From assembly GCF_900114265.1 (NCBI RefSeq), contig NZ_FPKV01000003.1, positions 124,001-188,000 of the forward strand: a DNA stretch of 64,000 nucleotides, in the 5' to 3' direction. The DNA comes from Flaviramulus basaltis (GTDB lineage Bacteria; Bacteroidota; Bacteroidia; Flavobacteriales; Flavobacteriaceae). This document shows, piece by piece, positions 2,407 to 26,697 of the stretch; positions within the stretch are counted from its first letter, which is position 1, and every line of letters begins with the position of its first letter. The translations under genes were made by a program, and so were the position numbers. The notes under the pieces were generated by a model, which saw nothing but the letters and a program-made list of their open reading frames with translations, made no database searches and was not told where the DNA came from.

Positions 2407-3243
2407 TTAAATTCCACTCCTGCCCAAATAGGTACGCACATACGAATGTTCACCTGTTAAAAAACTCCTTGGACTATCACCAATTAATTTTTTAAAATCA
2501 TTAATAAAATGCGCTTGGTCGTAGTAACCACAATCTAAAGCTAGATGATGTAGTTTTTCAGTATCTGATGAGTTTAACATTTCAAACACTGTATTAAGCT
2601 GTATAACTTTACAAAAATACTTAGGTGATACACCTATAACTTCCTTAAATTTTCTTCTAAAATGACGGAGACTAATTCCAAGTTTTTCTGCAAGAGTTTC
2701 CTGTGCTATTATTCCATTAAGTTGATAAATATGTATTAAAGCCTCTTCTAACCATTCAATTTTTGGTAAACTATTAGCGGAAAGATCTTTTAAAAATTCA
2801 AGCATAAAAGACACACGATTAATTGGCAATTTACATTTAGTTAAGTTTTTATAGAGGTTTTGTGTATTGTTAGGTGAAACCTTATTGAAGCTACGCCATT
2901 GGTTTAAAAAATAATCACCATTTTTATGAAATAAGTAATAAGGAGCTGAAGGATATAGTATAAAACCAATTTGTCCAAATTCACCATCTATTTTAATTTG
3001 AATATCAGTATTATATACTTGGCCAGCAACATTCAATCTTGAATCAGGTTTTATAATTTGATTATTTATATGAAGTAAAGGAATATCACGGTATATATTA
3101 ATTAACAATGGAAAACCATTTGGGTGAACAGGATATGTTGTAGTAATTACAGATTTTGATTCACCTTGAATTACTGCTACAATATAAGGTTGCAGTTCTT
3201 GAGGGATATTATAATCTAACTTTTTAACAAAAGAATCTATCAT
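2407..3243 (-). CDS. AraC-family transcriptional regulator (DUF6597-like N-terminus)
   Basis: A 278-aa cytoplasmic DNA-binding protein. The C-terminal ~100 residues form the double helix-turn-helix of AraC/XylS proteins: first HTH in QETLAEKLGISLRHFRRKFKEVIG, second in LHHLALDCGYYDQAHFINDFKKLIGDSPRSF. The N-terminal ~160 residues (around FPLLINIYRDIPLLHI) fit the beta-rich sensing domain often labelled DUF6597 in Bacteroidetes regulators. The effector is unknown. It is divergent to the hybrid two-component regulator with 119 bp between the starts, so the two may share a control region. No operator could be identified by eye. Confidence 0.85.
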   Translation of the reverse strand: MIDSFVKKLDYNIPQELQPYIVAVIQGESKSVITTTYPVHPNGFPLLINIYRDIPLLHINNQIIKPDSRLNVAGQVYNTDIQIKIDGEFGQIGFILYPSAPYYLFHKNGDYFLNQWRSFNKVSPNNTQNLYKNLTKCKLPINRVSFMLEFLKDLSANSLPKIEWLEEALIHIYQLNGIIAQETLAEKLGISLRHFRRKFKEVIGVSPKYFCKVIQLNTVFEMLNSSDTEKLHHLALDCGYYDQAHFINDFKKLIGDSPRSFLTGEHSYVRTYLGRSGI

Positions 3244-3362
3244 TTATTAAATTATCTTTTAATCTTTACATCAATAAGGATGTCCGAATTTTACAATAAA
3301 GCATAATTCAAAAAAGCTATTTTCTAATATAGAATAATTAAAAGAAAAATAGATAATTAATT

Positions 3363-6300
3363 ATGCATAAAATAGCGCTTAAATCGTTTTTTTTAAGAAT
3401 CATAATCCTTTTATGTTATATAGTTTTCTTTTCAGAAGGTATTGCTCAGAATCAAATTACTTTTAGGCAACTTTCTGTAAAAGACGGACTTTCTCAAAAT
3501 AGTGCGGTATCCATTTCTCAAGATAGTATCGGTTTTTTATGGATAGCAACTCAAGATGGATTAAACAAATATGATGGAAAAAAGTTCACTACCTACCCCT
3601 TCAGCTTTATAGATATTACAAAACCTAATTATAGTAATCTTGGAAAAGTATATACTGATAGAAAAGGGGAAGTATGGATTATACCTATTAGTAAAATACC
3701 TCATAAATTAAATAGAGAATTTAATGTATTTGAGCCTATCTCAACAATCGATGATGCAAGTGTAATTTATCAAGACACAAATTTTAATTACTGGATTGGT
3801 ACGTATTCAAGCGGTCTTTATTTAATAAACCCATACACTTACAAATCAAAAAAAATAGTATCTACGCAACAACTCAAAGGCACTGTTTTTCAAATAGCCG
3901 AAAACAAAAACTCAGACCTTATATTAACCAGTGAAAAACAAATTATAGAGTTAAACTTAAGTTCTAATATTGCTAATTATATTAAACCACAAACTATATA
4001 TGGGGATAGCATTAAACAAAACTTTAGTACTATTGTTTTTGATAAAAATGAAAGACAATGGATTGGAACTTATGGCGACGGACTTTATTTTAGAGACAAA
4101 AAAGATGAAATATTTAATAGAATTTCTAAGCTTTCTTTTACAGATCCTTTACCGATAGATCTTAATATTTTAGCATTATATATAGATTCAAAAGGCCGAC
4201 TTTGGATTGCGAGTTATGGTAGAGGATTATATATGATAGATTTTGAAAATACCAAAATATCTCATTTTAAGGTTGAAAAACAAAATCCTAAAGCACTTCA
4301 TTACAATGATATTTTAAATATTTATGAAGATTATTCTGGTACTTTATGGTTTGGTTCAGATGGTGCTGGAGTTAGTTATTATGATGAGTATCTAGAAAAG
4401 TTTAATTCATTCATTAATTTTCAAACACCCGAAAATATAAGTATTGATGTAATTAGAGCAATTACAACAGATGCCAATAATAATATATGGTTGGGTACTT
4501 CAGGTAAAGGATTAACTCAATACAAGCCAGCAACAAATAGCTGGAGAACATTTAATACAAATATAGACGCTAAAAACACTATTTCTTCTAATAGAATTAT
4601 GAGCCTTTTTGTAGATGATGATAATGTATTGTGGATTGGTACACAAGCTGGAGGGTTAAATTTACTAGATACCAGTAATTATATAAAAAAGTACACAACT
4701 ACATCTAATCCTTTTTTGTCTGCAATAACAATTTGGGATATTTTTAAAGATAACCAAAACAGATTTTGGTTAGGGACTAGAGATAATGGTTTGATTCAAT
4801 TTAATAAAACTAAGGGTGAAATTAAAAAATATACGATAATAGATTCCTTACCTAGCAATAATATAAGAGTAATTGAACAAAGTAATTCTAATAGTTTATG
4901 GTTAGGCACAGAAGAAAATGGTGTGGTTTTATTTGATATGAAAAAAGAAACATTTAAACAATATAAATTTCAGTCTAATAAAAACTCTTTGTCAAATAAT
5001 AAAATTAAAACACTGTATTATGACTCTAAAGATATTTTATGGATAGGGACAAATGGTGGTGGTTTAAATGCCTTTGATACTAAAAAGGAATATTTTTATC
5101 ATTTTACAACTAAAGATGGTCTTGCTAATAATGTTATTTATGCTGTATTGCCCGATAAAAATGGGAATCTTTGGTTAAGTTCTAATAAAGGGATTACTAA
5201 ATTTACCCAAGGCAAATCATTAGAAGATCCTCCCAAAGTTATAAATTATGATAATTATGCTGGTTTAGCAACAGAGTTCAATACTGGAGCCTATTATATA
5301 GATTCAAAGTTTAATCTTTACTTTGGAGGATTAGATGGGTTTTATTGGTTTAATCCTAACAATATTGAGGAAAATAGGATACTTCCTAAAACAACAATTA
5401 CGGGCTTTGAAGTACTTGATGAGCCTCAATTATTAAAACAAGGCACAAAACTAAAACATAACCAAAATACATTATCTTTTACTTTTTCGAGTTTGCAATA
5501 TTCACTACCCGAAAAGAACATGTATCAATATCAATTATTAAATTATGATAAAGATTGGGTACAGGCAGGTAATAATAATTTTGTTCGTTATCCACAAATA
5601 CCTCCTGGAGATTATGAATTTAGAGTAAAGTCTAGTAATTATGATGGCGTTTGGAACGAAATCCCCGAAACATTTAAATTCTCAATAGCAACGCCTTGGT
5701 ATTTAACCACTTTGGCAAGGACTATTTATGTCCTTTTACTACTAATTACAATTTTTGGAATATATTCATATTTAAAATGGCGCTGGAGGATACAATTAGA
5801 CTTGCAATTGAAAGAAAAAGAAGCCGAACGATTTAAAAAACTCAATGATTTTAAATCAAAATTGTATACAGATATATCTCATGAATTTAGAACACCCTTA
5901 ACACTTATATCAGGTCCTATAGATGCAAAACTAGGGGAAGGTAAAATATCAGACTCTGACTTTGCTAATTTCTCTATGATTAAACGCAATACAAATAGAT
6001 TATTATCCCTTGTAGATCAATTATTGGATTTAGCTAAACTAGATAAGGGTAATTTAAAATTAAAGATCTTTCAAGGTAAAATCGACTTGTTTCTTAATAA
6101 TATTGCGGCTTCTTTTGATTATAAATCGGAAACAAAAAAAATAAATTACACAATAAATATAGAGTCTATAAAAAATGCTTGGTACGATGAAGATATACTA
6201 GAAAAAATAGTAACAAATTTACTTTCAAATGCATTTAAATACAGTCCTGAAAATGGTATTTGTATGTTTATAGTCAAAAGAGACATAAGTAATATAGAGA

Positions 6301-7382
6301 TTCATGTAAAAAACACAACCGAGAATCTTTCAGAAGTTCAATTAGAAGATCTTTTTACCCGATTTTATCAAAAAGATGAATATGCTGAAGGTGCTGGAAT
6401 AGGACTCTCATTAGTAAGAGAGCTAATTCAGTTATATAATGGTGAAATATCTGTTAATCTTGAAAAGGATAATGTGATTGATTTTATGGTGATTCTCCCT
6501 ATTTATAAAAAATCATTTAACAAAGAGGATATTTTAAAAGAATCTCTAAAAAAGGAAACACCTAATACAGTTATTTTAGATACTATAGATGTTGAACAAG
6601 ATTTTGTAATAGAAGGCAATGAAAATGAAATACCTATTTTGTTAGTAGTAGATGATCATACTGAAGTTCGTCAATTCATAAAATCAATATTAAAACATAA
6701 ATATCAAGTATTTGAAGCCGAAAATGGAAAACAAGGAATAAAAAAAGCCATGCAATTGGTGCCAGACATTATTATTTCAGATGTTCGAATGCCAATTTGC
6801 GACGGGATTGAGTTGTGTAACTCACTTAAGGCTGATGAACTAACCAGTCATATTCCTATTGTGTTATTAACAGCTGGAACTGGAGAAGAAAAGGAATTAA
6901 AAGGGTTACAATCAGGGGCTGATGATTTTATAACAAAGCCTTTCAAATTAAGAATACTTGAAACAAAAATAGCAAACCTTATTGAAATTCGGAAATCATT
7001 AAGGAGTCGATATAGTCAAGAATTTATATTAAAGCCTAAAGAAATATCCATTACTTCAACAGATGAAGCATTTTTGAATAAAATACAGCAAATATTAGAT
7101 AAACATTTGTCTAATCCAGATTTTAATGCAGTTTCCTTTAGTAAAGAATTAGCCATGAGCAGAATGCAATTACATAGAAAATTATTGGCTTATACAGGTA
7201 TATCAACTTCAGCATTTATAAGATCTCAAAGGTTAAAACAGGCATTACATATTTTAAAAACTTCTGATGCAACAATAAATGAAGTAGCTTATATGGTTGG
7301 CTTCAATACCCCTTCTTATTTTATAAAATGTTTTAAGGAAGCATACAAAAAAACACCTTCTGAATATTTTGAATCCCTTTAA
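3363..7382 (+). CDS. Hybrid two-component system regulator (HTCS)
   Basis: A 1339-aa one-protein signalling system. After a signal peptide (about residues 1-28) come repeated propeller units with D..G.LW.GT patterns (about 30-690), a Y_Y_Y domain (about 700-775), one membrane helix (about 786-806), a histidine kinase with H-box SHEFRTPL (His840) and N-box VTNLLSNAFKYSP, a receiver domain from about 1092 with phospho-acceptor Asp1140 in ISDVRMP, and an AraC-type HTH at the C-terminus (about 1243-1339). The sensor is periplasmic and the output is cytoplasmic DNA binding. HTCS proteins usually sense oligosaccharides and control an adjacent locus. The adjacent genes here are the ten-gene exported-protein unit and not a SusCD locus, which is unusual. 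Confidence 0.95.
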   Translation: MHKIALKSFFLRIIILLCYIVFFSEGIAQNQITFRQLSVKDGLSQNSAVSISQDSIGFLWIATQDGLNKYDGKKFTTYPFSFIDITKPNYSNLGKVYTDRKGEVWIIPISKIPHKLNREFNVFEPISTIDDASVIYQDTNFNYWIGTYSSGLYLINPYTYKSKKIVSTQQLKGTVFQIAENKNSDLILTSEKQIIELNLSSNIANYIKPQTIYGDSIKQNFSTIVFDKNERQWIGTYGDGLYFRDKKDEIFNRISKLSFTDPLPIDLNILALYIDSKGRLWIASYGRGLYMIDFENTKISHFKVEKQNPKALHYNDILNIYEDYSGTLWFGSDGAGVSYYDEYLEKFNSFINFQTPENISIDVIRAITTDANNNIWLGTSGKGLTQYKPATNSWRTFNTNIDAKNTISSNRIMSLFVDDDNVLWIGTQAGGLNLLDTSNYIKKYTTTSNPFLSAITIWDIFKDNQNRFWLGTRDNGLIQFNKTKGEIKKYTIIDSLPSNNIRVIEQSNSNSLWLGTEENGVVLFDMKKETFKQYKFQSNKNSLSNNKIKTLYYDSKDILWIGTNGGGLNAFDTKKEYFYHFTTKDGLANNVIYAVLPDKNGNLWLSSNKGITKFTQGKSLEDPPKVINYDNYAGLATEFNTGAYYIDSKFNLYFGGLDGFYWFNPNNIEENRILPKTTITGFEVLDEPQLLKQGTKLKHNQNTLSFTFSSLQYSLPEKNMYQYQLLNYDKDWVQAGNNNFVRYPQIPPGDYEFRVKSSNYDGVWNEIPETFKFSIATPWYLTTLARTIYVLLLLITIFGIYSYLKWRWRIQLDLQLKEKEAERFKKLNDFKSKLYTDISHEFRTPLTLISGPIDAKLGEGKISDSDFANFSMIKRNTNRLLSLVDQLLDLAKLDKGNLKLKIFQGKIDLFLNNIAASFDYKSETKKINYTINIESIKNAWYDEDILEKIVTNLLSNAFKYSPENGICMFIVKRDISNIEIHVKNTTENLSEVQLEDLFTRFYQKDEYAEGAGIGLSLVRELIQLYNGEISVNLEKDNVIDFMVILPIYKKSFNKEDILKESLKKETPNTVILDTIDVEQDFVIEGNENEIPILLVVDDHTEVRQFIKSILKHKYQVFEAENGKQGIKKAMQLVPDIIISDVRMPICDGIELCNSLKADELTSHIPIVLLTAGTGEEKELKGLQSGADDFITKPFKLRILETKIANLIEIRKSLRSRYSQEFILKPKEISITSTDEAFLNKIQQILDKHLSNPDFNAVSFSKELAMSRMQLHRKLLAYTGISTSAFIRSQRLKQALHILKTSDATINEVAYMVGFNTPSYFIKCFKEAYKKTPSEYFESL

Positions 7383-7402
7383 TAGCAAGATTTTTCAAAG
7401 CC

Positions 7403-7431
7403 TGTTACATTTCTTCTATCATTTGTTACAT
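7403..7431 (+). promoter_or_regulatory. Direct repeat TGTTACAT, candidate HTCS operator
   Basis: TGTTACAT occurs at 7403-7410 and again at 7424-7431, 21 bp apart start to start, which places both copies on the same DNA face. It sits between the HTCS stop and the next gene, with its end 30 bp upstream of a TAnnTTTG promoter box. This arrangement fits an AraC-type activator site. Binding by the neighbouring HTCS is inference. Confidence 0.5.
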
Positions 7432-7460
7432 ACGTAGTATTCGTTTCATGGTAATGCGTT

Positions 7461-7468
7461 TAGTTTTG
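7461..7468 (+). promoter_or_regulatory. Bacteroidota -7 promoter element TAGTTTTG
   Basis: TAGTTTTG matches the TAnnTTTG consensus and ends 25 bp before the start of the OmpA-like gene. No clear TTG -33 box lies at the usual distance, in keeping with an activator-dependent promoter. Confidence 0.5.
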
Positions 7469-7493
7469 GTTTAGAATTTTAAATCAAATTAAG

Positions 7494-8600
7494 ATGAAAC
7501 TGAAATACATAATGTGCCTAATCACATTTTTAATATTTGGTTTACACCTAAAGGCACAAAATTCTCAAACCGAATCAAGCGAAGAATCTTCAACAAACCA
7601 ATCTGAAGTAAAAGTATGGTCAAAGTACAACTTTGTACCTGGTGACGAAATTATTTTTCAAGATGATTTACTTGTGGAAGAAAATGGCGAGTTTCCTTCA
7701 CGTTGGGATTTATTAAAAGGAAATGCTGAAAATGCCGTTTTTGAAAATGAGAATGCTATCAATTTTGAAAATAGAAGTATTGTAACGCCACTTATAGATA
7801 AGCAAAACTACTTACCTGAAATTTTCACCATTGAGTTTGATGCCTATTTTAATGATGTTTACTACAGTTGGCAGAGTTATAATATCCGTTTTTGGAAAGG
7901 AACAAAAGAGTATATAAAACTAAACAGCGAGAATGACGACATTTTTAAGACACTAAAAATCCATAATAATGGCGCTTATGCTGAAACACGCATCGAAAAA
8001 TTTACCAAAAAATTTGAAGGTTATGATGATAATATAAAAGGACAGCTACCTGGTTGGAAACATATTGCTATTTCTTTTAACAAGCGAACATTAAAAGTAT
8101 TTGTAGATCAATACAGAGCTTTAAATATTCCAAATTTAAAAATTAAGCCAGAAATAGTAAGCATCGAATCATATACTAATAATAAGGATGGGCTTATTAT
8201 GGCTATTAAAAATGTTCGAATTGCTGAAGGCGGTAAAAAGTTATACGACAGGGTAATGTCTGATGGTAAGTTTGTTACCACAGGTATTTTATTTGATGTA
8301 AACAAAGCTACTTTAAAACCTGAATCTATGGGTATCATAAACGAAGTAGCTAAAATGATGCAAGAACATCCCGATTTAAATTTTAGTATTGAAGGCCATA
8401 CAGATAGTGATGGTGCCGATGACTACAATCAACAACTTTCCGAACAAAGAGCCAACACTGTAAAAGGAACTTTAATAGAGTTGGGTATAGATGAAACAAG
8501 GTTACAAACAAAAGGGTTAGGCGAAAGTGTACTACTTAATGATAATAATACTGCCGAAAACAAGGCGAACAACAGAAGAGTAGAATTTATAAAAATTTAA
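7494..8600 (+). CDS. OmpA-family protein with lectin-like N-terminal domain
   Basis: A 368-aa exported protein, first gene of the ten-gene unit. Residues 1-21 are a signal peptide ending HLKAQ. The middle (about 60-245) has a beta-rich, LamG-like pattern such as FTIEFDAYFNDVYYSW and GWKHIAISFN. The C-terminus (about 255-368) is an OmpA/MotB peptidoglycan-binding domain: ILFDVNKATLKPESM, IEGHTDSDG, LSEQRANTVK, NRRVEF. It therefore probably sits in the outer membrane or periplasm anchored to peptidoglycan. The ligand of the middle domain is unknown. The next gene starts 4 bp after its stop. Confidence 0.85.
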   Translation: MKLKYIMCLITFLIFGLHLKAQNSQTESSEESSTNQSEVKVWSKYNFVPGDEIIFQDDLLVEENGEFPSRWDLLKGNAENAVFENENAINFENRSIVTPLIDKQNYLPEIFTIEFDAYFNDVYYSWQSYNIRFWKGTKEYIKLNSENDDIFKTLKIHNNGAYAETRIEKFTKKFEGYDDNIKGQLPGWKHIAISFNKRTLKVFVDQYRALNIPNLKIKPEIVSIESYTNNKDGLIMAIKNVRIAEGGKKLYDRVMSDGKFVTTGILFDVNKATLKPESMGIINEVAKMMQEHPDLNFSIEGHTDSDGADDYNQQLSEQRANTVKGTLIELGIDETRLQTKGLGESVLLNDNNTAENKANNRRVEFIKI

Positions 8601-8604
8601 AACT

Positions 8605-9477
8605 ATGAAGACAATAATAACACGGTGTTTAATCCTATTTCTATTATGTGGAACAACTACACATGCACAATTTTTTAAAAAATTAAAAGAGCGCGCTAAA
8701 GATGCAGCAGAAGAAACGGTTCTGCGTAAATCAGAAGAAAAGGTTGCGCAAAAAACCGATCAAACTATGGAGAAAATCTTCAATATTAATTTCGGTAAGG
8801 GAAAAGCTATAGATCCATCACTTTTATCATCAAGCTACAACTTCAATTGGAGGTACACCTTAGAGATGATCACTAAAGAAGGTAATTTAAAAATGCACTA
8901 CTATCTAAACGAAGATGCAGACTATTTTGGAAATCAACCAGAAATGCCCAATGGTAAAGGTTCAGGCTCTATGGGTAATATGTTTATGGTCTATGATTTG
9001 AAGAATGAGTTAATGGCAATTTTTATGGCAAACGGTACTAAAAAAACTGGAATGGCCATGAGTATACCTAAAATGGACGAAATAGTTGAAGATCAGGATT
9101 TTTCTGAAACCTCTTTTAAAGAAATCGGTACCAAGGAAATTTTAGGTTACACCTGTCAAGGTTTTGAAATGGATAGTAAAGAATACCATATTGTAATGTA
9201 TGTCGCTTTTAATACACCAGTAAGTTTTAATAATTACAAAGAAAGCATGTCTAAAAACCTACCTAAGGGATTTAATAAAAAATGGCTGGAAAAATTAGAA
9301 GACAATAGTCTTATGATGGAAATGACCTATACCAACAAAAAGAAAAGTAAACTTTCTGGCACCATGACATGTGTGGCTTTAGTAAATGAAACCAAGAGCA
9401 TTCAAGTTTCCGATTACTCCTTTGATTTTCAAAAAGGTACAGAAAAAGCCACTGAAGAAAGTAAAAATGATTATTAA
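8605..9477 (+). CDS. DUF4412-like exported protein
   Basis: A 290-aa protein with a signal peptide (cleavage near THAQ, residue 22) followed by a charged helix FFKKLKERAKDAAEE. The central and C-terminal parts resemble DUF4412 proteins of Bacteroidetes: a beta-rich region with GTKEILGYTCQGFEM and MYVAFNTPVSF. Met and Gly are frequent between residues 105 and 165. The function of this family is not known. It lies second in the unit, 4 bp after the OmpA-like gene and 16 bp before the next start, so co-expression is likely. Confidence 0.7.
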   Translation: MKTIITRCLILFLLCGTTTHAQFFKKLKERAKDAAEETVLRKSEEKVAQKTDQTMEKIFNINFGKGKAIDPSLLSSSYNFNWRYTLEMITKEGNLKMHYYLNEDADYFGNQPEMPNGKGSGSMGNMFMVYDLKNELMAIFMANGTKKTGMAMSIPKMDEIVEDQDFSETSFKEIGTKEILGYTCQGFEMDSKEYHIVMYVAFNTPVSFNNYKESMSKNLPKGFNKKWLEKLEDNSLMMEMTYTNKKKSKLSGTMTCVALVNETKSIQVSDYSFDFQKGTEKATEESKNDY

Positions 9478-9493
9478 TTTAAAACAAGAAGTT

Positions 9494-9907
9494 ATGAAAG
9501 CAAAAATTTTAATTCCTATTCTTTTTTTAACGCTGAGCTTATTTAAGGTTCAATCTCAAAAATTGACCATTCAAAAAGAGACAAAAGTTGTCCTTATAGT
9601 TGATAAAAAAACGAACATAGCAACCAATTTGGCTGATTATTCGGAAATACAGGATCTAATGAACTCAAGAAAACTATTAGCTAAATACCCAAACAGCATG
9701 TTTTTTCCAGGTATAATTAAAGGAAGTTATGTTAGTAGTAAAACACTATTAGGATTGCCGATAGATACCATGTTAACTATTTATAATGATAAACCACTTT
9801 TCTCTGGTGATCATTTTTTTCTAGGAGATCACTTCAAAATTACTAGCAGGGAAGTATCTATAATGTCGAGCCAAAAGGGAGAATTAGAGTTAAAAATTAT
9901 TCGTTAA
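9494..9907 (+). CDS. Small exported protein, paralog of the 12172 gene
   Basis: 137 aa from ATG 9494, chosen because it gives a clean signal peptide (ILIPILFLTLSLFKVQSQ) and clears the previous gene. An in-frame start upstream at 9386 would overlap that gene by 92 bp. The mature part shares a pattern with the gene at 12172: KETKVVLIVDKKT, a KYP box with G.I.G.Y after it, GDHF and QKGELELKI. No known domain was recognised. Probably a small periplasmic or surface beta-sandwich protein; function unknown. Confidence 0.7.
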   Translation: MKAKILIPILFLTLSLFKVQSQKLTIQKETKVVLIVDKKTNIATNLADYSEIQDLMNSRKLLAKYPNSMFFPGIIKGSYVSSKTLLGLPIDTMLTIYNDKPLFSGDHFFLGDHFKITSREVSIMSSQKGELELKIIR

Positions 9908-9951
9908 CAAAATACAGAATAACTGTTCTTATAATCAAAAAAAAGAAAATC

Positions 9952-11214
9952 ATGAAAAAAATATTAATAATTACGTTGTTAGTAATTATTTGTTTGGTGT
10001 TTGCAGCAGCTAACAAAGTAGATATTTATAAAGATGAGAATAGTGTAAACACTATAATAGAAAACAACGATATAGAGTTAATGAATGCTGCTTTGGTGGC
10101 GCCAAATGGCAATGCTTATTTTTTTAAAGGCATTTGGTGTCATCAATATAATATTAAAACAGACAAACTTATTGCAGTTCGCAAACTAAAAACAGATGCC
10201 TTTAAGGGGGTGGAAACCAATGTTGATGCGGCTTTAATGCATCCTACAAATAGCTATGGCTATATTTTTAAAGGGAATACCTATTACCGGTTCGACTTTA
10301 AAAAAGGGCAGAGGGATAAGATGGGAATTATTGGAAAGAATGGTTGGTCTGGACTCCAAGGGCCTTTTGATGCGGCACTTGTTCACCCAATTAATAAAAA
10401 TGCCTATTTCTTTAAAGGAAGAAATTATTATCGCTATAATTTGTCTTCAGATAAAGTTACAAAAGTAGGCACAATTGGTGTAGATGGGTGGAAAGGAGTA
10501 CCTCTAGATACAGATATGGCGGTAATACACTCCAATGGTAAAGCGTACTTTTTTAAGGACGATTATTACTACCGTTTTGATTTCCAAAAAGATAGAATGG
10601 ATAAAAGAGGATTTATAGGTAGAGATGGATGGCCAGAACTTTTTAATAAAATTGATGCAGTAGTATATTCATCAATTTCAAATCAACGTTATTATTTTAA
10701 AGGACAAAATTGTTTTATACCTGATTATAAAGCAACAAGTGGTAAAGTTTCTAGTGAACGAGATGTTGTTCATACGCCTTATAAAATAGGATATGCTATT
10801 TTTCCTGGAATAACCTCAAATATAGACGCAGCTTTGGAGCATCCTAAGAGTAAAAAATTATACTTTTTTAAAGGTAAAAAATACTACATCTATGATAAAT
10901 CATTGGACAAAGTAATTGATATTAAAACAATTGGAGTTTATGACTGGAAGGGAGTACCAGCTGATGTAGATGCTGCAACGGTTTATAAAAATGGATATGC
11001 CTATTTTTTTAAGGGGCAACACTATTATAGATATGATTTTATCAAAAAAAAAGCTGATAACCCAAGAACTATTGGATTAGATGGTTGGAAGGGAATACCA
11101 TATTATATTGATGCTGCTGACGCCAATGCTTTCTATAAAAAATCTATTGAATATCAGTATTCCAGTGAAAAATTAACTATTAAGTATCCTATACCCAATT
11201 CTATTTTCAAATAA
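9952..11214 (+). CDS. Hemopexin-like repeat protein
   Basis: A 420-aa exported protein with an N-terminal hydrophobic signal (residues 1-20). It holds seven clear repeats and a partial eighth, starting near residues 44, 91, 139, 187, 234, 291, 339 and 387. Each follows the hemopexin pattern: DAAL.HP...AYFFKG..YYRYD...K followed by G.DGWKG. Repeat 5 is degenerate (CFIPD in place of YYRYD). Eight blades would make two four-bladed propellers. In animals hemopexin domains bind haem or matrix proteins; the bacterial forms are poorly understood, and the ligand here is unknown. There is no sorting domain or lipobox. It is central in the ten-gene unit. Confidence 0.85.
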   Translation: MKKILIITLLVIICLVFAAANKVDIYKDENSVNTIIENNDIELMNAALVAPNGNAYFFKGIWCHQYNIKTDKLIAVRKLKTDAFKGVETNVDAALMHPTNSYGYIFKGNTYYRFDFKKGQRDKMGIIGKNGWSGLQGPFDAALVHPINKNAYFFKGRNYYRYNLSSDKVTKVGTIGVDGWKGVPLDTDMAVIHSNGKAYFFKDDYYYRFDFQKDRMDKRGFIGRDGWPELFNKIDAVVYSSISNQRYYFKGQNCFIPDYKATSGKVSSERDVVHTPYKIGYAIFPGITSNIDAALEHPKSKKLYFFKGKKYYIYDKSLDKVIDIKTIGVYDWKGVPADVDAATVYKNGYAYFFKGQHYYRYDFIKKKADNPRTIGLDGWKGIPYYIDAADANAFYKKSIEYQYSSEKLTIKYPIPNSIFK

Positions 11215-11220
11215 CTAAAT

Positions 11221-11745
11221 ATGAAAGTATTAATCACATTACTTGTAATTATCGTTTTACTTATTAGCTGTAAAGAGAGCAAAAAACATGAAGAAAAAAC
11301 CATCTTAAAAACTGAAAAGGTTGAGGTAGAAAACGCATCTAAAGGAACTTTGAAACTCACTTTAAACGGCAAAACCTATGTATATAATAATATAGACTGG
11401 GAAAAGAGCCGTGTAAAATACGATGATAACATTAGGCTTTCGATTGTTCAAGAAAGAATGCCCCAGCTTAAATTTTGGTTTCCCGATGTGAAGGAATCCT
11501 TAACAGCACAAAACAACTTTAAACTGCCTGATATACATAGAGGGAAACTTCCCATCTCAATCAATTTCATTCTCTATTCAGAAGAGGGAGGAAAAAGCAG
11601 AGAGGCATGGATTTTTAGAACGGGTGAACTCAGAGCAAGTCTGGAAAATGATCGATTTCAAATGACCTTTAAAGGTGAAGGTGGCCCCTCGTTAGATTCC
11701 TCAAAAAGATACCCTATAAGTGGGGAGTTAAATATTAAAATGTAG
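11221..11745 (+). CDS. Lipoprotein of unknown function
   Basis: A 174-aa protein with a short hydrophobic leader and lipobox LLISC (Cys at residue 17), then a charged linker KESKKHEEKT. The mature part (about 45-174) looks beta-rich, with LKLTLNGKTYVYNN and PISGELNIKM. No known domain was recognised. It starts 6 bp after the hemopexin-repeat gene and ends 4 bp before the broken gene that follows, so it belongs to the same transcript. It could be a membrane-anchored partner of the exported proteins around it, but that rests only on position. Confidence 0.7.
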   Translation: MKVLITLLVIIVLLISCKESKKHEEKTILKTEKVEVENASKGTLKLTLNGKTYVYNNIDWEKSRVKYDDNIRLSIVQERMPQLKFWFPDVKESLTAQNNFKLPDIHRGKLPISINFILYSEEGGKSREAWIFRTGELRASLENDRFQMTFKGEGGPSLDSSKRYPISGELNIKM

Positions 11746-11749
11746 AGGT

Positions 11750-12168
11750 ATGAAAAATCTAATATTAATTTCTTTTTTGCTTGTAGTTTATATAACCAAT
11801 GCCCAAAGCAAATTTACTATTCTAAATAAAAATTCCAGAACGACAGGGATTATAAAAATGCAATTTGAAGTATATAGTTCTGATAGGGTATATGTACGAA
11901 TTTGGGCAAAATGCAATTCTAACGATTGCTTCTAGGGTAATTTTTTAACCAAAAAAGATATAAGTTATCCTGAGTATTTGCAGCGACTTAAAGGTGACTG
12001 GATTCCGTATTACAATCCTATTAAATAAAAGAATCGTTTGTAGAGCGTCATATAACTATTTACCAACATCGTAGTGACCATAAATACTATAAAGTAAAAG
12101 TTAATAATAACTATAAAGGCCCAAAAAAGGAAGACACCAACTATAGCTATACATTAAAAGAACAATAA
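11750..12168 (+). pseudogene. Broken exported-protein gene (stop plus frameshift)
   Basis: The gene starts with a good signal peptide (NLILISFLLVVYITNAQS) but stops after 61 codons at TAG 11933-11935. The same frame continues open for 30 codons, giving GNFLTKKDISYPEYLQRLKG and on to NPIK before TAA 12026-12028. A frame shifted by one base at the A-run near 12023-12030 then runs as KESFVERHITIYQ to TAA 12166-12168, three bases before the next gene. Together they would make a protein of about 139 residues that exactly fills the space in the operon. This is best read as a decayed gene with one nonsense and one frameshift mutation. No family was recognised. Confidence 0.7.
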
Positions 12169-12171
12169 TCG

Positions 12172-12600
12172 ATGAAACTAAAATTATATATAATACTGAT
12201 TTTCAGCATGCTTTCAATGGGTTTTGTTAAAGCTCAAACTTTATCTACCAAAGAAACCAAGATAGTACTTGTAGTTAATGAAAAAACCGATGAGGTTAAG
12301 CATATAGAACTTTTCAGCAATTTCAAAAAAATAACTCAAAAAGAGATGTTAAGTAAGTACCCAGATTATAAATTTTATATAGGAATACTACAAGGCAAGT
12401 ATAGCCTAGATCAAAACAGAGTTATACTTCATAAAGATGCTACCATAACCTTATATACAAATAAACGCTATTTACCCAATGAAGATCTATTTCCTAGTGA
12501 TGGTCTATCAGCTGGCGATAATTTTACTTTAGGCAAAACTACAACTGAGGTTATATCGAATAAAAAAGGAGAGCTTATTCTAAAAACAATAGAAAAATGA
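12172..12600 (+). CDS. Small exported protein, paralog of the 9494 gene
   Basis: 142 aa with a signal peptide ending VKAQ (residue 22). It aligns with the 9494 product over its whole length: KETKIVLVVNEKT, a SKYPDYKFYIGILQGKY segment, then GDNFTLG and NKKGELILKT. The pair points to an old duplication inside the operon. No known domain was recognised and the function is unknown. Its stop overlaps the start of the next gene in ATGA (12597-12600), so translation of the two is probably coupled. Confidence 0.7.
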   Translation: MKLKLYIILIFSMLSMGFVKAQTLSTKETKIVLVVNEKTDEVKHIELFSNFKKITQKEMLSKYPDYKFYIGILQGKYSLDQNRVILHKDATITLYTNKRYLPNEDLFPSDGLSAGDNFTLGKTTTEVISNKKGELILKTIEK

Positions 12601-13382
12601 AAAAGAAAGGAATACTACTGCTATTGTTCACCTTAATACTAGTTATACCAAACGTAGAGGCGCAATTATTAAAAAAATTAAAACAAAAGGTATTAGGGAA
12701 AGATAGTAAAGAAGGCTTACTAACAGGCATGTTTGTGAGTGAAACCAATCAGGTTTTTAAAGACTGGGATATGGGTGAAGCCGATATTGTATTGTCTTTT
12801 CATCCTGCAGATAGTACCCAAAAAGGAACACAAAAAATAGGTAAGATATTGGATGATGGTAGTTTTAGCTATCAACTACCAGATTCCATACTTACCTCAG
12901 TACCTGTTCGTTCATTTATTTCAGAATGCACCAATAAAGAGGAAACCATTGTGAAAAATGATTCAGTAACCATTTCACCAGCTTTTATTAGAGTTGGTCA
13001 AAATAATAAGTTTATTGGCTATATAGTTCCTGCAAGCTCAATAAAAACATCTTATAACACCATAAGTGGAGGACTCATAAACAACGGGCATTTAGGGCAT
13101 TATTATTTACCAATTTATGCCAATGGTGAAGCAACAATTGAGCTAAACTGTGTTAAAAAAGTGAAAATGGAAGATGGTAAAGGCTTTGCATTTAAAACCA
13201 AAGTACCAGTTGACGAATATTTTAATTATGAATTTAAAAAAGGATGGAATCTTGTTGATGTACATGTTATTGACAATCTTTTAGTTGGCGAATCTTATCA
13301 TTATATCGAACGAAGTTGGTCTGTCATAGAAAAATTACCCAATAACTCTGTATGGGTGTTTATCCCTGTTATTAATAAATAA
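12597..13382 (+). CDS. Exported protein, paralog of the 13394 gene
   Basis: 261 aa with a signal peptide ending NVEAQ (residue 23) followed by LLKKLKQKV, which echoes the start of the DUF4412-like protein. The rest is beta-rich with no known domain. It shares with the next gene product FKDWDMGEADIVLSF (FKDWQYGDAVIFLVT in the paralog), a G.YIVPASS-type middle and an end of the form FKKGWNLVDVHV...VGE.....WSVIE......WVF. Two such neighbours suggest tandem duplication. Function unknown; periplasmic or surface location is likely. Confidence 0.7.
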   Translation: MKKKGILLLLFTLILVIPNVEAQLLKKLKQKVLGKDSKEGLLTGMFVSETNQVFKDWDMGEADIVLSFHPADSTQKGTQKIGKILDDGSFSYQLPDSILTSVPVRSFISECTNKEETIVKNDSVTISPAFIRVGQNNKFIGYIVPASSIKTSYNTISGGLINNGHLGHYYLPIYANGEATIELNCVKKVKMEDGKGFAFKTKVPVDEYFNYEFKKGWNLVDVHVIDNLLVGESYHYIERSWSVIEKLPNNSVWVFIPVINK

Positions 13383-13393
13383 AACTATATAAA

Positions 13394-14308
13394 ATGAAAA
13401 CATACATTAAAACTTTAGGAATTATAATTCTCTTCTTCGGAAATGTAGCATTTGCACAAATAAAAAATGAAGAAAAGGAGTATATAGAAGAAGTTCAAAA
13501 AATATCACAGCTTATGGCGAAACATCCTGAGAAAATGGACAGTCTAATGAAAGTAATGGATGTGATGGATAAAAAATTCAGAGCCAATAAAACAAAAACA
13601 GAAGTAGCTAAAAAGCAAAACAAAAATTCAACAAATAAAAAATCAACCAGTCATCTAGACAGGTTTATAATCAGCGAAACAAAGGCTAGATATTTTAAAG
13701 ATTGGCAATATGGTGATGCTGTAATATTTTTAGTGACCCAACCCTACAAGCCTGAAAATAAACGAGAACTTAAAGTAGGCGATATTAATGCTCAAGGAGA
13801 ATTTAAATTAAATGAACCTGAATCTGTATTATTTGATAGAAAAGTCAGCGATTTTTTTAAATGTCAAGGTGCTAGTTCACAAATAGAAACTACGTATTCA
13901 TCACCTGAAATAGGAATAATACCAGCATTTTTTAGTATAAAGAAAAATGGTGAAGAGATTGGTGTATTAAGTTTAGCAACATCAAAACAACAAGCCTATA
14001 ACAATTCACCAATTGGGCAATATACAGGAGATGCAGGGTATAGGGTAGTGTTGTTTTATGTTGAAGAATCTGTAACTGTTCAAACAGAATGTGCAAGAAA
14101 TATTCAAGGTACTGATTATGGTGAGAATCAAAAACAATTGGAGATTGTGGATTCGTATAATTTGTCTTTTCAACCTGGTTGGAATTATGTAAAAGTAGCT
14201 ATTAATGGAAGTCAAAATGTTGGAGAAGTAAGCTATTACAAAAGAAAAGAATATTCAGTTATTGAAAATAGAGGGGAAGATGTAAAATGGGTTTTTGCTA
14301 AAAATTAA
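13394..14308 (+). CDS. Exported protein, paralog of the 12597 gene
   Basis: 304 aa with a signal peptide ending NVAFAQ (residue 22). It adds a charged, probably helical insert of about 70 residues (KNEEKEYIEEVQKISQLMAK and a Lys/Asn-rich linker) before the domain shared with its upstream neighbour, which starts at FKDWQYGDAVIFLVT and ends GWNYVKVAINGS...EYSVIE......WVFAKN. The insert may serve in binding or spacing. No known domain was recognised. It lies 11 bp after its paralog and 21 bp before the large propeller gene. Confidence 0.7.
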   Translation: MKTYIKTLGIIILFFGNVAFAQIKNEEKEYIEEVQKISQLMAKHPEKMDSLMKVMDVMDKKFRANKTKTEVAKKQNKNSTNKKSTSHLDRFIISETKARYFKDWQYGDAVIFLVTQPYKPENKRELKVGDINAQGEFKLNEPESVLFDRKVSDFFKCQGASSQIETTYSSPEIGIIPAFFSIKKNGEEIGVLSLATSKQQAYNNSPIGQYTGDAGYRVVLFYVEESVTVQTECARNIQGTDYGENQKQLEIVDSYNLSFQPGWNYVKVAINGSQNVGEVSYYKRKEYSVIENRGEDVKWVFAKN

Positions 14309-14329
14309 AAATAATTAAAAAAAATAGTT

Positions 14330-16720
14330 ATGAAAACAAAACTACTAATCTTGCTTACAAGTATATCGTCACTTTTAAGTTACGCACAATTAACAAAAGC
14401 TGAAACGTACATAATAGGTACAAAAATAGGTTTCTACCCCAACCAATGTGGTAATATTATACCTGAAGCAACAGGTAAACTATCATTTTGTGACAGCAAC
14501 AATAACCTTGCGGTTGTTGAAAAAAGCTTCGGTTTAAATGATAGAGGTGTAGAACGCATGCTACCAAATTATTTTAATGAAGATGAAGTATATGTAACAG
14601 GTAAAGGCTTATCTATTAGAAATACAGATGGAACTTGGGAAAATGTGCCCAATATTGCAATGCCAGAATCTAGCACACAATACGAACGTAATACGCCAAT
14701 AAGAAATGGGCTGGTTTTGCCTGATGGAAAAATTATAATTCAAGCAACTAATACAGGTGTTAATTTTCAAGTATATGATAGAGTATTAAAAACTTTGACT
14801 CCAGTTAATTTTCCAGATAATAAATATCCTTATCTATTTGCATACGATTCTGTTAGAGGGCTTACTTGGATTTTAACCCAAAATGGAAGTAATCGTTATT
14901 TATTTACTTACGATGGATCTTCGTTGAGCGAAATTGCAAACGTGACTTCTGGCATAGCGACCAACATCGCTGTGCTTTCCGTTAATTTTGTATATCATGA
15001 CAATAGCCTGTATGTGGGAAGTAGCAATGGTTTATATAAAATAGATGTCAATACGCTTATAATAACGCAATATAATTCGAGTACAACGCCAAGCTTACCA
15101 TTTGATTCAGTGGGAGATTTAAAGTTTGATAGCAATGAAAATTTATGGTTGGCACATTACGGTGGAAGTGCTGATGGTGGGATTGTAAAATTTGACGTGA
15201 TCAATGAAACATACGAATTATATCAATTGGAAACCGAAAACAATCCTAATATTAATCATACGTTTGAAAATTTGGCTATAGATGAAAGCGGAATGATTTG
15301 GGCTACAGCAATCAATTATTTAGGTCTGATAAAACTAACATTCCCAGGTGATGTCGCAACGTTTGAAACAATTCCAAGATTAGATTTTAATACTTTGGGT
15401 GTACCTTGGATTTACGTTCCAAATAATATTTATTATCGCAATAACAAGTTCTATTTTACAACAGTTGATATTTTATCAAGTCCAAATTTTAATTATGAAG
15501 TGTTAATTAATGAAAACGGCTCTTGGTCCGGTAGAAACGACGACGAACTTGGTAATATCTCAACCAGCATGAATTGGGGATTTAATGAAGCTTTACCAGA
15601 TGATAATGGTAATGTATGGTGGTTTGGAACAACTGATATTATTATAAAAAGAGATGAAAATGATAATCATCAAACGCTAGTTTTAGAGAATTTAGGTCAA
15701 AACGCAGCTATAGATTCTGATCAAAACGCTGTTGTAAAAGGAGGCAATCCTAACGAATTAAGAAAGGTGAATTTTCCAAATGCAACTTCCATACAAGGGG
15801 CGCCAAATAGTGCTGTACAAATACAGCAATATAAAGATGAAATATGGGTGTACGATAATAATTTAAAAAAAATAGATGTATATAAAAATGATGCGCTTGT
15901 AGATACATACAATCTTGATGAAAATGACTATCAGAATATTACCAAAATGGCAATTGATGATACTGGAGACGCTTGGTTTTCAAGGTATATTGGCACAAAT
16001 GATCTTGTTATTAAAAAGTTCAATACCGTTTTAGGTACTACTACGACTTTTAATAGATTAGAAAATATAAGCACCATTAAAAAAGTTATTGTAGCTCCTA
16101 ATAATGGCGTTTGGTTTATAGGACAATTGGGAGCTATTTATTATAACGGAACAAATTTTTACCCATTTTTGGCAGCTGATTATAATGAAATTTACAATCT
16201 TGTTAATGCGGTTGTTGATATTAATGGTAAAATTTATTTATTAAATAACGATAGTGCTTCTATCACAACTATAGAAAATCCAGAAAGTGTTACTCCAATT
16301 CTAACCGAAACAAAGCTCGAAAATACGAATGCCATTTTACCAGCTTTAGATCAATATAAACCTAGCACTATTGTTATTGATAATAATGGAAGTGTTTGGA
16401 CGCATGCTTCATTAAACACTTTTAAACTTATTGATAATGATTTTGCTACCCAATATAAAGTCCAAGAAACGCTAAGTGTTAACCAACTTGATTATTTACA
16501 AGCTAACATTAATGTTTACCCTAATCCTACTTTAGAAACCATATATATAAAATCTTCAATTCCGATAAGTGAATTATCGATTTTTGATTTATTAGGTAAA
16601 GAAATGGTGAAAAATAAAAATAGCCAACAAATAAACCTATCTGGATTATCAAGAGGAATTTATATTCTACAAGTAAAGGCAAATAATAAGGTAACAAGTA
16701 AAAAAATTATTTTGCAGTAA
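14330..16720 (+). CDS. Secreted propeller protein with T9SS type A sorting domain
   Basis: A 796-aa protein, last gene of the ten-gene unit. A signal peptide (ending SYAQ, residue 20) is followed by about 680 residues with two-component-propeller-like repeats, for example NLWLAHYGG, GMIWATAINY, NVWWFGTTD, GDAWFSRY and NGVWFIGQLG. The last ~80 residues are a type IX secretion signal: INVYPNPTLETIYIKS, LSIFDLLGKE, GLSRGIYILQVKANN, KKIILQ. It is therefore exported across the outer membrane and attached or released. The propeller resembles the sensor part of HTCS proteins but no kinase follows, so it may bind the same sort of ligand. A bidirectional terminator closes the unit. Confidence 0.85.
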   Translation: MKTKLLILLTSISSLLSYAQLTKAETYIIGTKIGFYPNQCGNIIPEATGKLSFCDSNNNLAVVEKSFGLNDRGVERMLPNYFNEDEVYVTGKGLSIRNTDGTWENVPNIAMPESSTQYERNTPIRNGLVLPDGKIIIQATNTGVNFQVYDRVLKTLTPVNFPDNKYPYLFAYDSVRGLTWILTQNGSNRYLFTYDGSSLSEIANVTSGIATNIAVLSVNFVYHDNSLYVGSSNGLYKIDVNTLIITQYNSSTTPSLPFDSVGDLKFDSNENLWLAHYGGSADGGIVKFDVINETYELYQLETENNPNINHTFENLAIDESGMIWATAINYLGLIKLTFPGDVATFETIPRLDFNTLGVPWIYVPNNIYYRNNKFYFTTVDILSSPNFNYEVLINENGSWSGRNDDELGNISTSMNWGFNEALPDDNGNVWWFGTTDIIIKRDENDNHQTLVLENLGQNAAIDSDQNAVVKGGNPNELRKVNFPNATSIQGAPNSAVQIQQYKDEIWVYDNNLKKIDVYKNDALVDTYNLDENDYQNITKMAIDDTGDAWFSRYIGTNDLVIKKFNTVLGTTTTFNRLENISTIKKVIVAPNNGVWFIGQLGAIYYNGTNFYPFLAADYNEIYNLVNAVVDINGKIYLLNNDSASITTIENPESVTPILTETKLENTNAILPALDQYKPSTIVIDNNGSVWTHASLNTFKLIDNDFATQYKVQETLSVNQLDYLQANINVYPNPTLETIYIKSSIPISELSIFDLLGKEMVKNKNSQQINLSGLSRGIYILQVKANNKVTSKKIILQ

Positions 16721-16873
16721 GGTTAAAGATAAATATTATTTGCCTTTAAATAGTTCTTTTTGACTTTAGTGTACAATTCGGTGAACCATACTAAATTAAA
16801 AGCGTTTAAAATACTGATATAAAAGGTGTTGTGGATTATTGATTAATCCTTGCCTCCCCGACTTTTAAAATTT

Positions 16874-16910
16874 AAAAAAGCCTGAAAATTATAATTTTCA
16901 GGCTTTTTTT
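16874..16910. terminator. Bidirectional intrinsic terminator
   Basis: A perfect 24-nt palindrome at 16880-16903 (arms GCCTGAAAATTA/TAATTTTCAGGC) is flanked by an A-run on the left and a T-run on the right. It lies between the plus-strand T9SS gene and the minus-strand GH27 gene, which converge, so it can stop transcription from both sides. Confidence 0.9.
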
Positions 16911-16948
16911 TATGATGTTAATTTAAATGAGTAATTTTTAAATATTAT

Positions 16949-18154
16949 CTATTCTTTTTCTAATTTAATCATTAAAACATCATGTGTGCCAATTTCGGCT
17001 TTCAAATTACTTTTGGTATTTCCCAAATTTTTATGATTAAATAAATCTCTTATTCTAAAGACACTATTTTTTAAGTCTAAACTTTTTCCATTTATATCAT
17101 CTCCAATGTCATGTTTTTTCCAATCAAAATTGATAGTAGTTGATGTGTCTTTCATATTTATGAATACGATTGCCCAAGCATCATTATCAAGCGGTTTTAA
17201 CCATATTTCTAAATCGTTTTCATTTGAAAATCGAAATCCTTGAATACCTAATTTATCTTGATTTATAGCTATTACTTCTTTGCTAGATAATGTTTTGATT
17301 GTTTCTTTTGAAGCAGTTCTTAAATCATTTCCCATAATTAATGGTGATGCTAACATGGTCCACATGGCAAAATGACTTCTGTCTTCTGCATCAGTCATAC
17401 CATTTCCAACTTCCATCATATCAAAATCATTCCAATGACCTGGACCTGCAACTTTACGAATATCTTTTCGCATATTAATAATTTTCCAAACTCCCCACGA
17501 TGACCATGAGCCATGTCCAACTTCACAATCCCAGCAATTAATAATATCTCCACTTACTCTCCATAAATGTCCAACATCTTGTGCCCATTTCCAAGGTTCA
17601 TTGTCTCCCCATTCGCAAATACTAAACACAATAGGTCTATTTGCTGCTTTTAATGCGTCTCGCATGGTCATATAAGCACCTTCTGCATTAAGTTTACTTG
17701 TATTGCACCAATCGTATTTTAAATAATCTACATCCCACGATGCATATGAACGTGCATCTTGATATTCGTAACCACGACTTCCAGGGTAACCAGCACATGT
17801 TTTAGAGCCAGCACAATTGTACAGTCCAAATTTTAATCCTTTAGAATGTATATATTCTGCTAATGCTTTCATACCACTTGGAAATTTTATTGGATCTGCA
17901 ATTAAATTACCATTTGCATCTCGTTCTTTTGACATCCAGCCATCATCTAGCACTATGTACTCGTAACCAGCATCTTTTAAACCTAATTCTACAAACTTAT
18001 CAGCAATGTCTTTTACTAATTGTTCGTTTATATCTGTTGCAAAAGTATTCCAGCTATTCCAGCCTAAAGGTGGGGTTTTTGCTAATCCTTCAAATTTTTG
18101 TGCATTAACATTAAAATTGGAGATTAGTAATAATAGTATTATTGCCTTTTTCAT
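16949..18154 (-). CDS. GH27 alpha-galactosidase
   Basis: A 401-aa exported glycosidase that removes alpha-galactosyl side groups, here most likely from galactomannan or galactoglucomannan. Signal peptide residues 1-18 (ends NVNAQ). The TIM barrel begins TPPLGWNSWN and shows the family motifs LDDGW (70-73), GLKFGLYNCAG, YLKYDWC with nucleophile Asp148, and WRVSGDI with acid/base Asp203. The C-terminal ~100 residues form the usual beta domain. Length is normal for GH27. It is the last gene of the SusCD operon, placed directly after a terminator-like hairpin, so it may be made in smaller amounts than the genes before it. Confidence 0.93.
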   Translation of the reverse strand: MKKAIILLLLISNFNVNAQKFEGLAKTPPLGWNSWNTFATDINEQLVKDIADKFVELGLKDAGYEYIVLDDGWMSKERDANGNLIADPIKFPSGMKALAEYIHSKGLKFGLYNCAGSKTCAGYPGSRGYEYQDARSYASWDVDYLKYDWCNTSKLNAEGAYMTMRDALKAANRPIVFSICEWGDNEPWKWAQDVGHLWRVSGDIINCWDCEVGHGSWSSWGVWKIINMRKDIRKVAGPGHWNDFDMMEVGNGMTDAEDRSHFAMWTMLASPLIMGNDLRTASKETIKTLSSKEVIAINQDKLGIQGFRFSNENDLEIWLKPLDNDAWAIVFINMKDTSTTINFDWKKHDIGDDINGKSLDLKNSVFRIRDLFNHKNLGNTKSNLKAEIGTHDVLMIKLEKE

Positions 18155-18162
18155 TTTTGATG

Positions 18163-18204
18163 TTTAAAAAATAATCCCTGAAAAATTACTAACAGGGATT
18201 ATTT
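18163..18204 (-). terminator. Terminator-like hairpin inside the SusCD operon
   Basis: AAATAATCCCTG (18169-18180) and CAGGGATTATTT (18193-18204) are a perfect 12-bp inverted repeat with a 12-nt loop. Read on the minus strand the stem is followed by a T-run, giving the shape of an intrinsic terminator. It lies between the FAS1 gene stop and the GH27 start, whose codon is only about 15 bp further on. It may attenuate GH27 or mark an RNA-processing site. Confidence 0.75.
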
Positions 18205-18256
18205 ATAAGATTTAATTGTTTAGTGGATTGATTAAATCTAAGATTTATTATTCATT

Positions 18257-20755: not shown

Positions 20756-20789
20756 TATAATTTTTTTTAGTTTATCTTTTTAGTTTAAA

Positions 20790-21902: not shown

Positions 21903-21918
21903 ATCAAACATTTTTTTA

Positions 21919-23496: not shown

Positions 23497-23516
23497 TATT
23501 TCTTTTTTTTTAATTT

Positions 23517-26621: not shown

Positions 26622-26697
26622 GTCTTTTAGTGTTAGTAGTGTTAATTGATAATTTTCGATTAATTATTTTATTATATTTATAATTAAACAAGTAGTT

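Follow-up and report, generated by a model that had tools for sequence, protein, structure and literature searches.

The 64,000-nucleotide stretch of Flaviramulus basaltis contig NZ_FPKV01000003.1 analysed here (the window) carries on its plus strand a gene for a hybrid two-component system regulator (HTCS) at 3363-7382. After a gap of 111 bp come ten genes, termed A to J, nine intact and one broken, that run to a hairpin at 16874-16909. The original prediction had described these ten genes as one HTCS-linked operon of exported proteins with no enzyme, a candidate undescribed system that looked like a surface assembly. When the open reading frames (ORFs) and translations were rechecked, the gene set, its order, the gaps and the ATGA overlap proved as described, and Pfam recognised all the expected HTCS domains in the preceding regulator. 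The features are:

3363-7382, + strand: HTCS with a signal peptide (by eye), a Reg_prop propeller and Y_Y_Y, HisKA, HATPase_c, Response_reg and HTH_18 (AraC-type) domains (Pfam)
7403-7431, + strand: predicted HTCS operator, a 21-bp direct repeat TGTTACAT-N13-TGTTACAT (exact copy unique in the genome; conserved behind the HTCS lineage)
7461-7468, + strand: possible -7 box TAGTTTTG, read from the sequence, which we liken to what we take to be the Bacteroidota -7 consensus TAnnTTTG
7494-8600, + strand: A, exported, with a predicted all-beta (LamG-like) domain and an OmpA peptidoglycan-binding domain (Pfam OmpA, 6e-23; AlphaFold2, AF2)
8605-9477, + strand: B, exported DUF4412 protein (Pfam, 1.4e-8) with the N-terminal helix motif QFFKKLKERA (motif count)
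9494-9907, + strand: C, small exported protein, paralog of G (34% identity)
9952-11214, + strand: D, exported hemopexin-repeat protein (PF00045, 5 stretches, 1.8e-39)
11221-11745, + strand: E, lipoprotein, lipobox LLISC by eye (sequence)
11750-12168, + strand: F, broken exported-protein gene, an in-frame stop followed by a frame change (sequence)
12172-12600, + strand: G, small exported protein, paralog of C (sequence comparison)
12597-13382, + strand: H, exported, paralog of I, with QLLKKLKQK opening the mature part after the signal peptide (sequence comparison)
13394-14308, + strand: I, exported, paralog of H, with a helical N-terminus and beta domains (sequence comparison; AF2)
14330-16720, + strand: J, propeller-like protein with a type IX secretion system (T9SS) sorting domain (Por_Secre_tail, 9.7e-14)
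16874-16909, + strand: intrinsic terminator hairpin between convergent genes (-18.5 kcal/mol, z -5.65)

From A to G the genes are parted by 4, 16, 44, 6, 4 and 3 bp; G and H are joined by the ATGA overlap, and 11 and 21 bp separate H from I and I from J. The hairpin agrees with the strong terminator that had been placed at the operon end, and was not reported by a consensus terminator scanner. A promoter scan was uninformative (83 sites versus 86.8 in shuffles), and Rfam at the gathering threshold gave no match within 3000-17500.

Products of the operon

Signal peptides on the products and the lipobox of E could be read by eye as stated, and Pfam confirmed DUF4412 in B, the hemopexin repeats of D and the T9SS tail of J, the only operon product to carry a T9SS C-terminal sorting domain (Pfam, NCBIfam). 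The propeller ascribed to J stays below the Pfam cut-offs, yet aligns to the propeller of the HTCS (E 1e-6, two-sequence comparison). For A, described as OmpA/LamG-like, the OmpA part was confirmed by Pfam and the LamG part was not: AF2, with a predicted local distance difference test score (pLDDT) of 88.6, gave a confident all-beta domain at about residues 52-245, but this N-terminal part had no LamG match in Pfam at E<=1, and the PDB rows shown cover mostly residues 246-368. The OmpA part aligns to Capnocytophaga OmpA (5wtl_C; Z 20.0, root-mean-square deviation 1.9, 117 aligned residues), to which A adds the all-beta domain without a Pfam family. D304 and R319 of A are invariant across 57 sequences, and we take them to be the peptidoglycan-binding residues, by A. 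baumannii OmpA. By Pfam, alignment and structure match, A thus has an OmpA fold with conserved putative peptidoglycan-binding residues, and it is expected in the periplasm on peptidoglycan rather than on the surface.

Both proposed paralog pairs, C/G and H/I (30% identity), were borne out. C matched no Pfam or NCBIfam family, and I, modelled by AF2 from 4 sequences at medium confidence (pLDDT 76.1), had no PDB match at Foldseek E <=0.001 and none at VIA Z >=8; profile searches of the PDB reached at best E 0.54 for H/I and 0.84 for C/G. A plasmid collection held no relative of I, and searches with the broken gene F found no convincing relative. Consistent with the claim that no enzyme is encoded, no enzyme family scored above cut-off among the products (Pfam, NCBIfam), H having a sub-threshold dUTPase match (18.4 bits versus a cut-off of 22, Pfam). 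The absence of SusCD and carbohydrate-active enzymes (CAZymes) from this HTCS-linked unit stood as well: neither a SusC/SusD pair nor, by Pfam and NCBIfam, a CAZyme lies within 7494-16720, and both marks of a polysaccharide-utilisation locus (PUL) are therefore missing.

As a side observation, in three of the loci compared (designated by L numbers here) a LamG-like domain is fused to the C/G domain, with long runs of a (F/Y)(L/I)PGDQ hexapeptide (L075:5308-6522, L083:5326-6486, L087:12303-13469), traces of which are kept in C and G of the window.

Regulator lineage and predicted operator

Between the HTCS and A lies the repeat TGTTACATTTCTTCTATCATTTGTTACAT at 7403-7431, whose form TGTTACAT-N13-TGTTACAT has no other exact match in the 4.19 Mb genome and none with one mismatch; at three mismatches the operator is uninformative (2 matches in the window versus 1.9 expected, 172 in the genome versus 105 for the reversed pattern). 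An HTCS search of 249 genomes separated two classes, with 51 hits in 50 genomes at 1011 bits or above and every other listed hit at 757 bits or below; the window HTCS is one of the 51 hits, three of which are not full length, and shares 41-61% identity with the others. Behind the HTCS in 42 of 51 lineage loci, which were gathered by searches with I, with A and with the HTCS, TGNNACAT occurs twice at 21-bp spacing (at least 11 of 12 letters, within 300 bp), versus 0-1 loci at each of the other 14 spacings from 15 to 29. Similarly, two copies of TGTTACAT at 14 or more of 16 letters occur within 450 bp in 33 loci, versus 0-1 at other spacings, and 31 of the 35 sites with at least 13 of 16 letters start 6-43 bp past the HTCS ORF. 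The 300 bp flanking each of 23 control HTCS ORFs, on both sides, held no such site.

The letters of the site vary with the regulator. In a sub-clade of 13 loci (ten at threshold), picked from the tree described below after the sites had been seen, the middle letters are NA in 16 of 20 half-sites, giving the variant half-site TGNAACAT, versus TT in 59 of 64 elsewhere, as is expected of a site read by the lineage HTCS. Of 13 further regulators with a related output module, 11 are likewise followed by the site at 14 of 16 letters (8 of the 9 with 938-987 residues and 3 of the 4 with 1274-1314), and in L065 a site at 15 of 16 letters lies upstream of A, behind a 7TMR-DISM regulator. The predicted operator fits what is expected of an HTCS, a direct repeat close to the target promoter with a length of about 21 bp; the B. 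thetaiotaomicron study (PMC3878776) gives its HTCS motifs as direct repeats averaging 21 bp, and counts 10 of 36 HTCSs without an assigned role. The PUL HTCSs of that study (PMC3878776) share the domain order and the 21-bp period with the window HTCS, which differs from them in having no SusC, SusD or CAZyme target.

The output module sets it apart too. A quick tree was built from the kinase, receiver and AraC domains, with no bootstrap and some long branches, from the 49 of 51 lineage rows and the 19 control rows that passed a coverage filter; in it, a branch with 99% support parts the 19 control HTCSs and two distant rows from the 49 lineage rows and 21 further hybrid regulators. Unlike the PUL HTCSs, some of these own-side relatives carry other sensors: among those of the 21 that were scanned, TPR sensors in L230, L262, L263, L264 and L160, with L234 just below the cut-off, and 7TMR-DISM in L065. 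An A relative is present in six of the nine loci with hybrids of 938-987 residues (L260-L268), namely L260-L263, L266 and L267.

Within stretches of up to 20 kb, a SusC relative lies near 4 of the 51 lineage loci versus 16 of 20 control HTCS loci, and a SusD relative near 1 of 51 versus 15 of 20, the query genes having been confirmed as such by Pfam. As controls served the HTCSs ranking next in the same search, which do not form a random sample; their loci are centred on the gene, while the lineage loci lie mostly downstream of it. On these comparisons, the HTCS at 3363-7382 appears as a member of a lineage no longer tied to PULs: it is an HTCS by its domains and operator type, outside any PUL.

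A convergent PUL does lie past the terminator, at 16949-30911, opening with a GH27 alpha-galactosidase gene at 16949 and comprising genes for a fasciclin and SGBP_B protein, SusD, SusC, an AraC regulator, GH26 and a sodium symporter; we guess it to be of the galactomannan type. The window HTCS might thus sense an oligosaccharide, possibly one handled by this PUL, and the operon might aid in glycan capture as a PUL accessory. Its propeller is presumably of the COG3292 sensor type. HTCSs with COG3292 sensors are reported to bind oligosaccharides (PMC3878776), and the GH27, SGBP_B, SusD, SusC and GH26 genes do come next downstream. However, the adjoining PUL has an AraC gene of its own (26874-27752), the exact operator precedes only the A-J operon in this genome, that operon holds no CAZyme (Pfam), and the rarity of SusC near lineage loci speaks against the idea as well; we regard a role as glycan-binding accessory as rather improbable.

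Mean pairwise identity among 45 lineage proteins is 0.47 in the sensor versus 0.50 in the kinase, compared with 0.40 versus 0.51 in the 20 control HTCSs; these control figures and those for the 23 control ORFs leave out an ORF in L258 that is not an HTCS. A sensor nearly as conserved as the kinase, and less so in the controls, suggests that the lineage reads a single widespread signal, not a polysaccharide that changes from genome to genome.

We also surveyed the 249 genomes for the exact repeat and found 56 sites in 44 genomes; as controls, the reversed pattern gave 2 sites, a spacer of 12 gave 2, and a spacer of 14 gave 6, spread over 5 genomes. Site and lineage HTCS occur together in 26 genomes, the site only in 18, the lineage only in 24 and neither in 181, relatedness of the genomes being ignored in these counts. 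Of the 56 sites, sixteen are found no more than 800 bp past a lineage HTCS, another five come after related hybrid regulators (L230, L234, L264, L266, L269), and three precede DUF4412 operons (L021, L026, L027). In the L021 and L026 genomes the lineage HTCS sits on a different contig from the DUF4412-operon site, and control of these two operons from a distant HTCS gene is therefore likely. A further 21 exact sites were read in 20 stretches; 18 of the 21 lie outside ORFs, and at 15 the first gene within 250 bp encodes a predicted exported protein. One of these proteins is A itself (L343), and judged by eye they also include collagen-like, fibre-type and T9SS-type proteins.

Separately, a tyrosine integrase is split over two frames at 108-1365 (Arm/SAM part 108-785, catalytic part 772-1365), likely by a frameshift, its closest relative among the loci compared being in L240. 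An integrase link to the lineage was considered and rejected, with one case among the 51 lineage loci (an integrase-like N-terminus fused to the L066 HTCS ORF).

Cargo behind related regulators

The link of this HTCS lineage with exported-protein genes recurs in other genera. Our home-made hydrophobicity and lipobox rule scores 132 of 141 genes as exported among the first four behind each lineage HTCS, versus 141 of 312 other genes in the same loci (50 loci without that of the window; ORFs of 90-1400 residues). Pfam was run on 136 of these 141 cargo proteins, five having been excluded by size, namely four regulators and a probable ribonucleotide reductase chain, and the 25 commonest of 68 families include Por_Secre_tail (11), Peptidase_S74 (10), DUF4412 (8), YadA_head (6), OmpA (6), Collagen (5) and Lipocalin_4 (4). 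Of the families of the window, B lies behind the HTCS in 16 lineage loci, C/G in 13, the LamG-like family in 10, and E and H/I in 5 each.

A search with I by itself gave relatives in 10 of 149 genomes, its own among them. In the nine other loci, tblastn with the ten proteins found HTCS, A and B together in L025, HTCS and A with E, C/G and H/I in L022, and HTCS, B and H/I in L027; B, E or A accompanies H/I in L021, L024, L026 and L028, and H/I stands alone in L023 and L029. A 15-sequence profile found H/I in 27 of 249 genomes; comparison of the lists by eye puts at least 14 of the 30 H/I places scoring more than 100 bits no further than 20 kb from a listed A match or a lineage HTCS. E relatives occur in L024, L061, L202, L227 and L229, and D relatives adjoin A and B relatives in L094 and L097. 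Some counts leave out L022 (the same place as L061) and L092, L099, L120, L141 and L152 (genomes already represented). Scattered homologs would have refuted the idea of one system; instead, the homologs are neighbours of each other and of a lineage HTCS in a number of genomes.

The same comparison bears on whether the ten genes might be a chance neighbourhood, with several unrelated transcripts behind the HTCS. That the cargo differs among genomes would suit such an arrangement, but the gaps of 3-44 bp, the single operator and the single terminator argue for one unit, the order HTCS-A-B of the window is found again in L025 and HTCS-A in L061, L063, L066 and L212, and the C/G, E and H/I families recur within the same loci; we consider chance hardly credible.

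Variable cargo is also what might be seen if the products were secreted effectors or served in defence against competitors, predators or phages, and the hemopexin repeats, together with two matches each to papain-type proteases and chagasin-type inhibitors in the relatives' 136 cargo proteins, could be taken the same way. In the operon itself, however, no toxin domain or immunity pair was recognised (Pfam, NCBIfam), and the only PADLOC matches were to MotB-type models and fell in the OmpA domain of A; this explanation appears very improbable.

Several features of the cargo are recorded here in their own right. A papain-family protease lies behind the HTCS at L062:6710-7831 (Pfam) and, as a relative of equal length, at L063:12237-13358. 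Large fibre-type exported proteins with a mature start like VGIGNTNPNATLDIS follow the HTCS or the operator in L214, L230, L330 and L331, with a Peptidase_S74 end confirmed in those of L214 and L230. Collagen-like Gly-x-y lipoproteins, often in tandem, do so in L206, L208, L235, L334 and L342; a Collagen domain was checked by Pfam in one of them. A charged helix of the type AQFFKKLKxRAExA comes right after the signal peptide in 58 of 674 cargo proteins versus 16 of 1759 others (same-family relatives counted singly), in the A, B and H/I families and one more.

LamG-like/OmpA relatives of A extend to Bacteroidales and Ignavibacteria. As upstream gene we took, within the five ORFs preceding A, the first one on the same strand with at least 100 residues, not in every case the direct neighbour of A; 86 of 103 loci had one, 17 did not, and matches were to Response_reg in 20, LytTR in 13, GerE in 13 and HTH_18 in 7. 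Response_reg, present in these 20 of 86 upstream genes, was matched by only 2 of 87 control genes taken from those loci. In L071, L076 and L077 a TPR histidine kinase and LytTR system directly precedes an A relative with exported neighbours; there kinase and response regulator are separate, whereas the window has one HTCS protein.

A response to envelope stress could account for this spread of regulator types, with the HTCS sensing damage or misfolded envelope parts and the products reinforcing the link between outer membrane and peptidoglycan. The invariant D304/R319 pair, presumed to bind peptidoglycan, fits such a role, as does a divergent sigma-70-like gene adjoining related cassettes (above the Pfam cut-off in L089, below it in L090 and L097, without a match at E 0.001 in L028). 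On the other hand, no chaperone, protease or lipoprotein-sorting family was recognised in the operon (Pfam, NCBIfam), and the relatives' cargo is rich in fibre-type, collagen-like and T9SS proteins. We therefore hold a stress response to be unlikely, though it stands ahead of glycan capture.

The L089 cassette lies in the same genome as the window (contig C27) and, beside the divergent sigma-70-like gene, holds relatives of A, C/G and H/I, a 242-residue partner protein and two long exported proteins (369 and 948 residues).

Proposed control and role

We propose that the periplasmic propeller of the HTCS would bind a signal, that phosphotransfer within the protein would activate its AraC domain, and that this domain would bind the direct repeat at 7403-7431, a prediction that the comparison of loci strongly supports. 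To judge from the spacing, one transcript would then be switched on from 7494 to the terminator, and its products, judging by their N-termini, would be exported: A would be held on peptidoglycan by its OmpA domain, E would lie in a membrane as a lipoprotein and J would reach the outside through the T9SS, with the remaining products in the periplasm or outer membrane. The regulatory half, in which the HTCS reads the repeat to control the operon, is very likely correct; that the whole is an operator-driven unit of exported proteins, distinct from a PUL, is probable. At the level of sequence, the comparison supports one HTCS lineage with one operator, mostly exported cargo and no PUL, the conserved part being the regulator and its DNA site and the cargo being modular.

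Several observations weigh against this proposal. No HTCS of this class is carried by 18 of the 44 genomes with an exact site; 6 of the 21 sites read have no exported protein as first gene within 250 bp, and while 9 of these 21 follow and 4 precede a gene with a related output module, 8 do neither. Conversely, 9 of the 51 HTCS loci lack a site at 11 of 12 letters even when 450 bp are considered. L200 and L204, which are close relatives, belong to these nine, although an exact site is found 532 bp behind the L200 HTCS gene. The A gene is also found behind LytTR and LuxR-type regulators, and in L100 (Ignavibacterium), one of the two distant rows of the tree, an HTCS on the sugar side lies near A and B relatives, so that A is not tied to the lineage. 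Finally, at only 26 of the 51 lineage loci does the run behind the HTCS include a member of the A, B, C/G, E or H/I families (15 of 40 among loci from the HTCS search alone), which leaves a shared function conjectural.

With gene content varying to this extent, and the same families occurring under other regulators, including in the window's own genome (L089), the fixed ten-part surface assembly of the original prediction did not hold up. Since the cargo differs between genomes, a regulon with modular cargo is indicated rather than one machine. As this cargo is of peptidoglycan-anchored, lipoprotein, T9SS and fibre-type kinds, we rank remodelling of the envelope or surface first, envelope stress second and glycan capture third; remodelling, for example for adhesion or protection, upon a conserved periplasmic signal is offered tentatively as a possible role of the operon. 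As to novelty, we found no literature describing the system, an HTCS-linked exported-protein operon or an orphan or non-PUL HTCS, in a search that left subscription literature mostly outside.

We see about an even chance that the lineage represents a class parallel to PULs, in which one output module reading TGTTACAT-N13-TGTTACAT is combined with exchangeable sensors (propeller, TPR, 7TMR-DISM) and controls modular sets of exported envelope or surface proteins in Flavobacteriaceae and perhaps in other Bacteroidota too, in some cases through sites that lie at a distance from the regulator gene. An HTCS gene is commonly read as a sign of a sugar-degradation locus. A lineage that has an operator of its own and exported targets would provide a sequence-based distinction from PUL-linked HTCSs and calls for caution in predicting PULs from the presence of an HTCS alone, and the unannotated exported families C/G, H/I and DUF4412 would gain a testable regulon.

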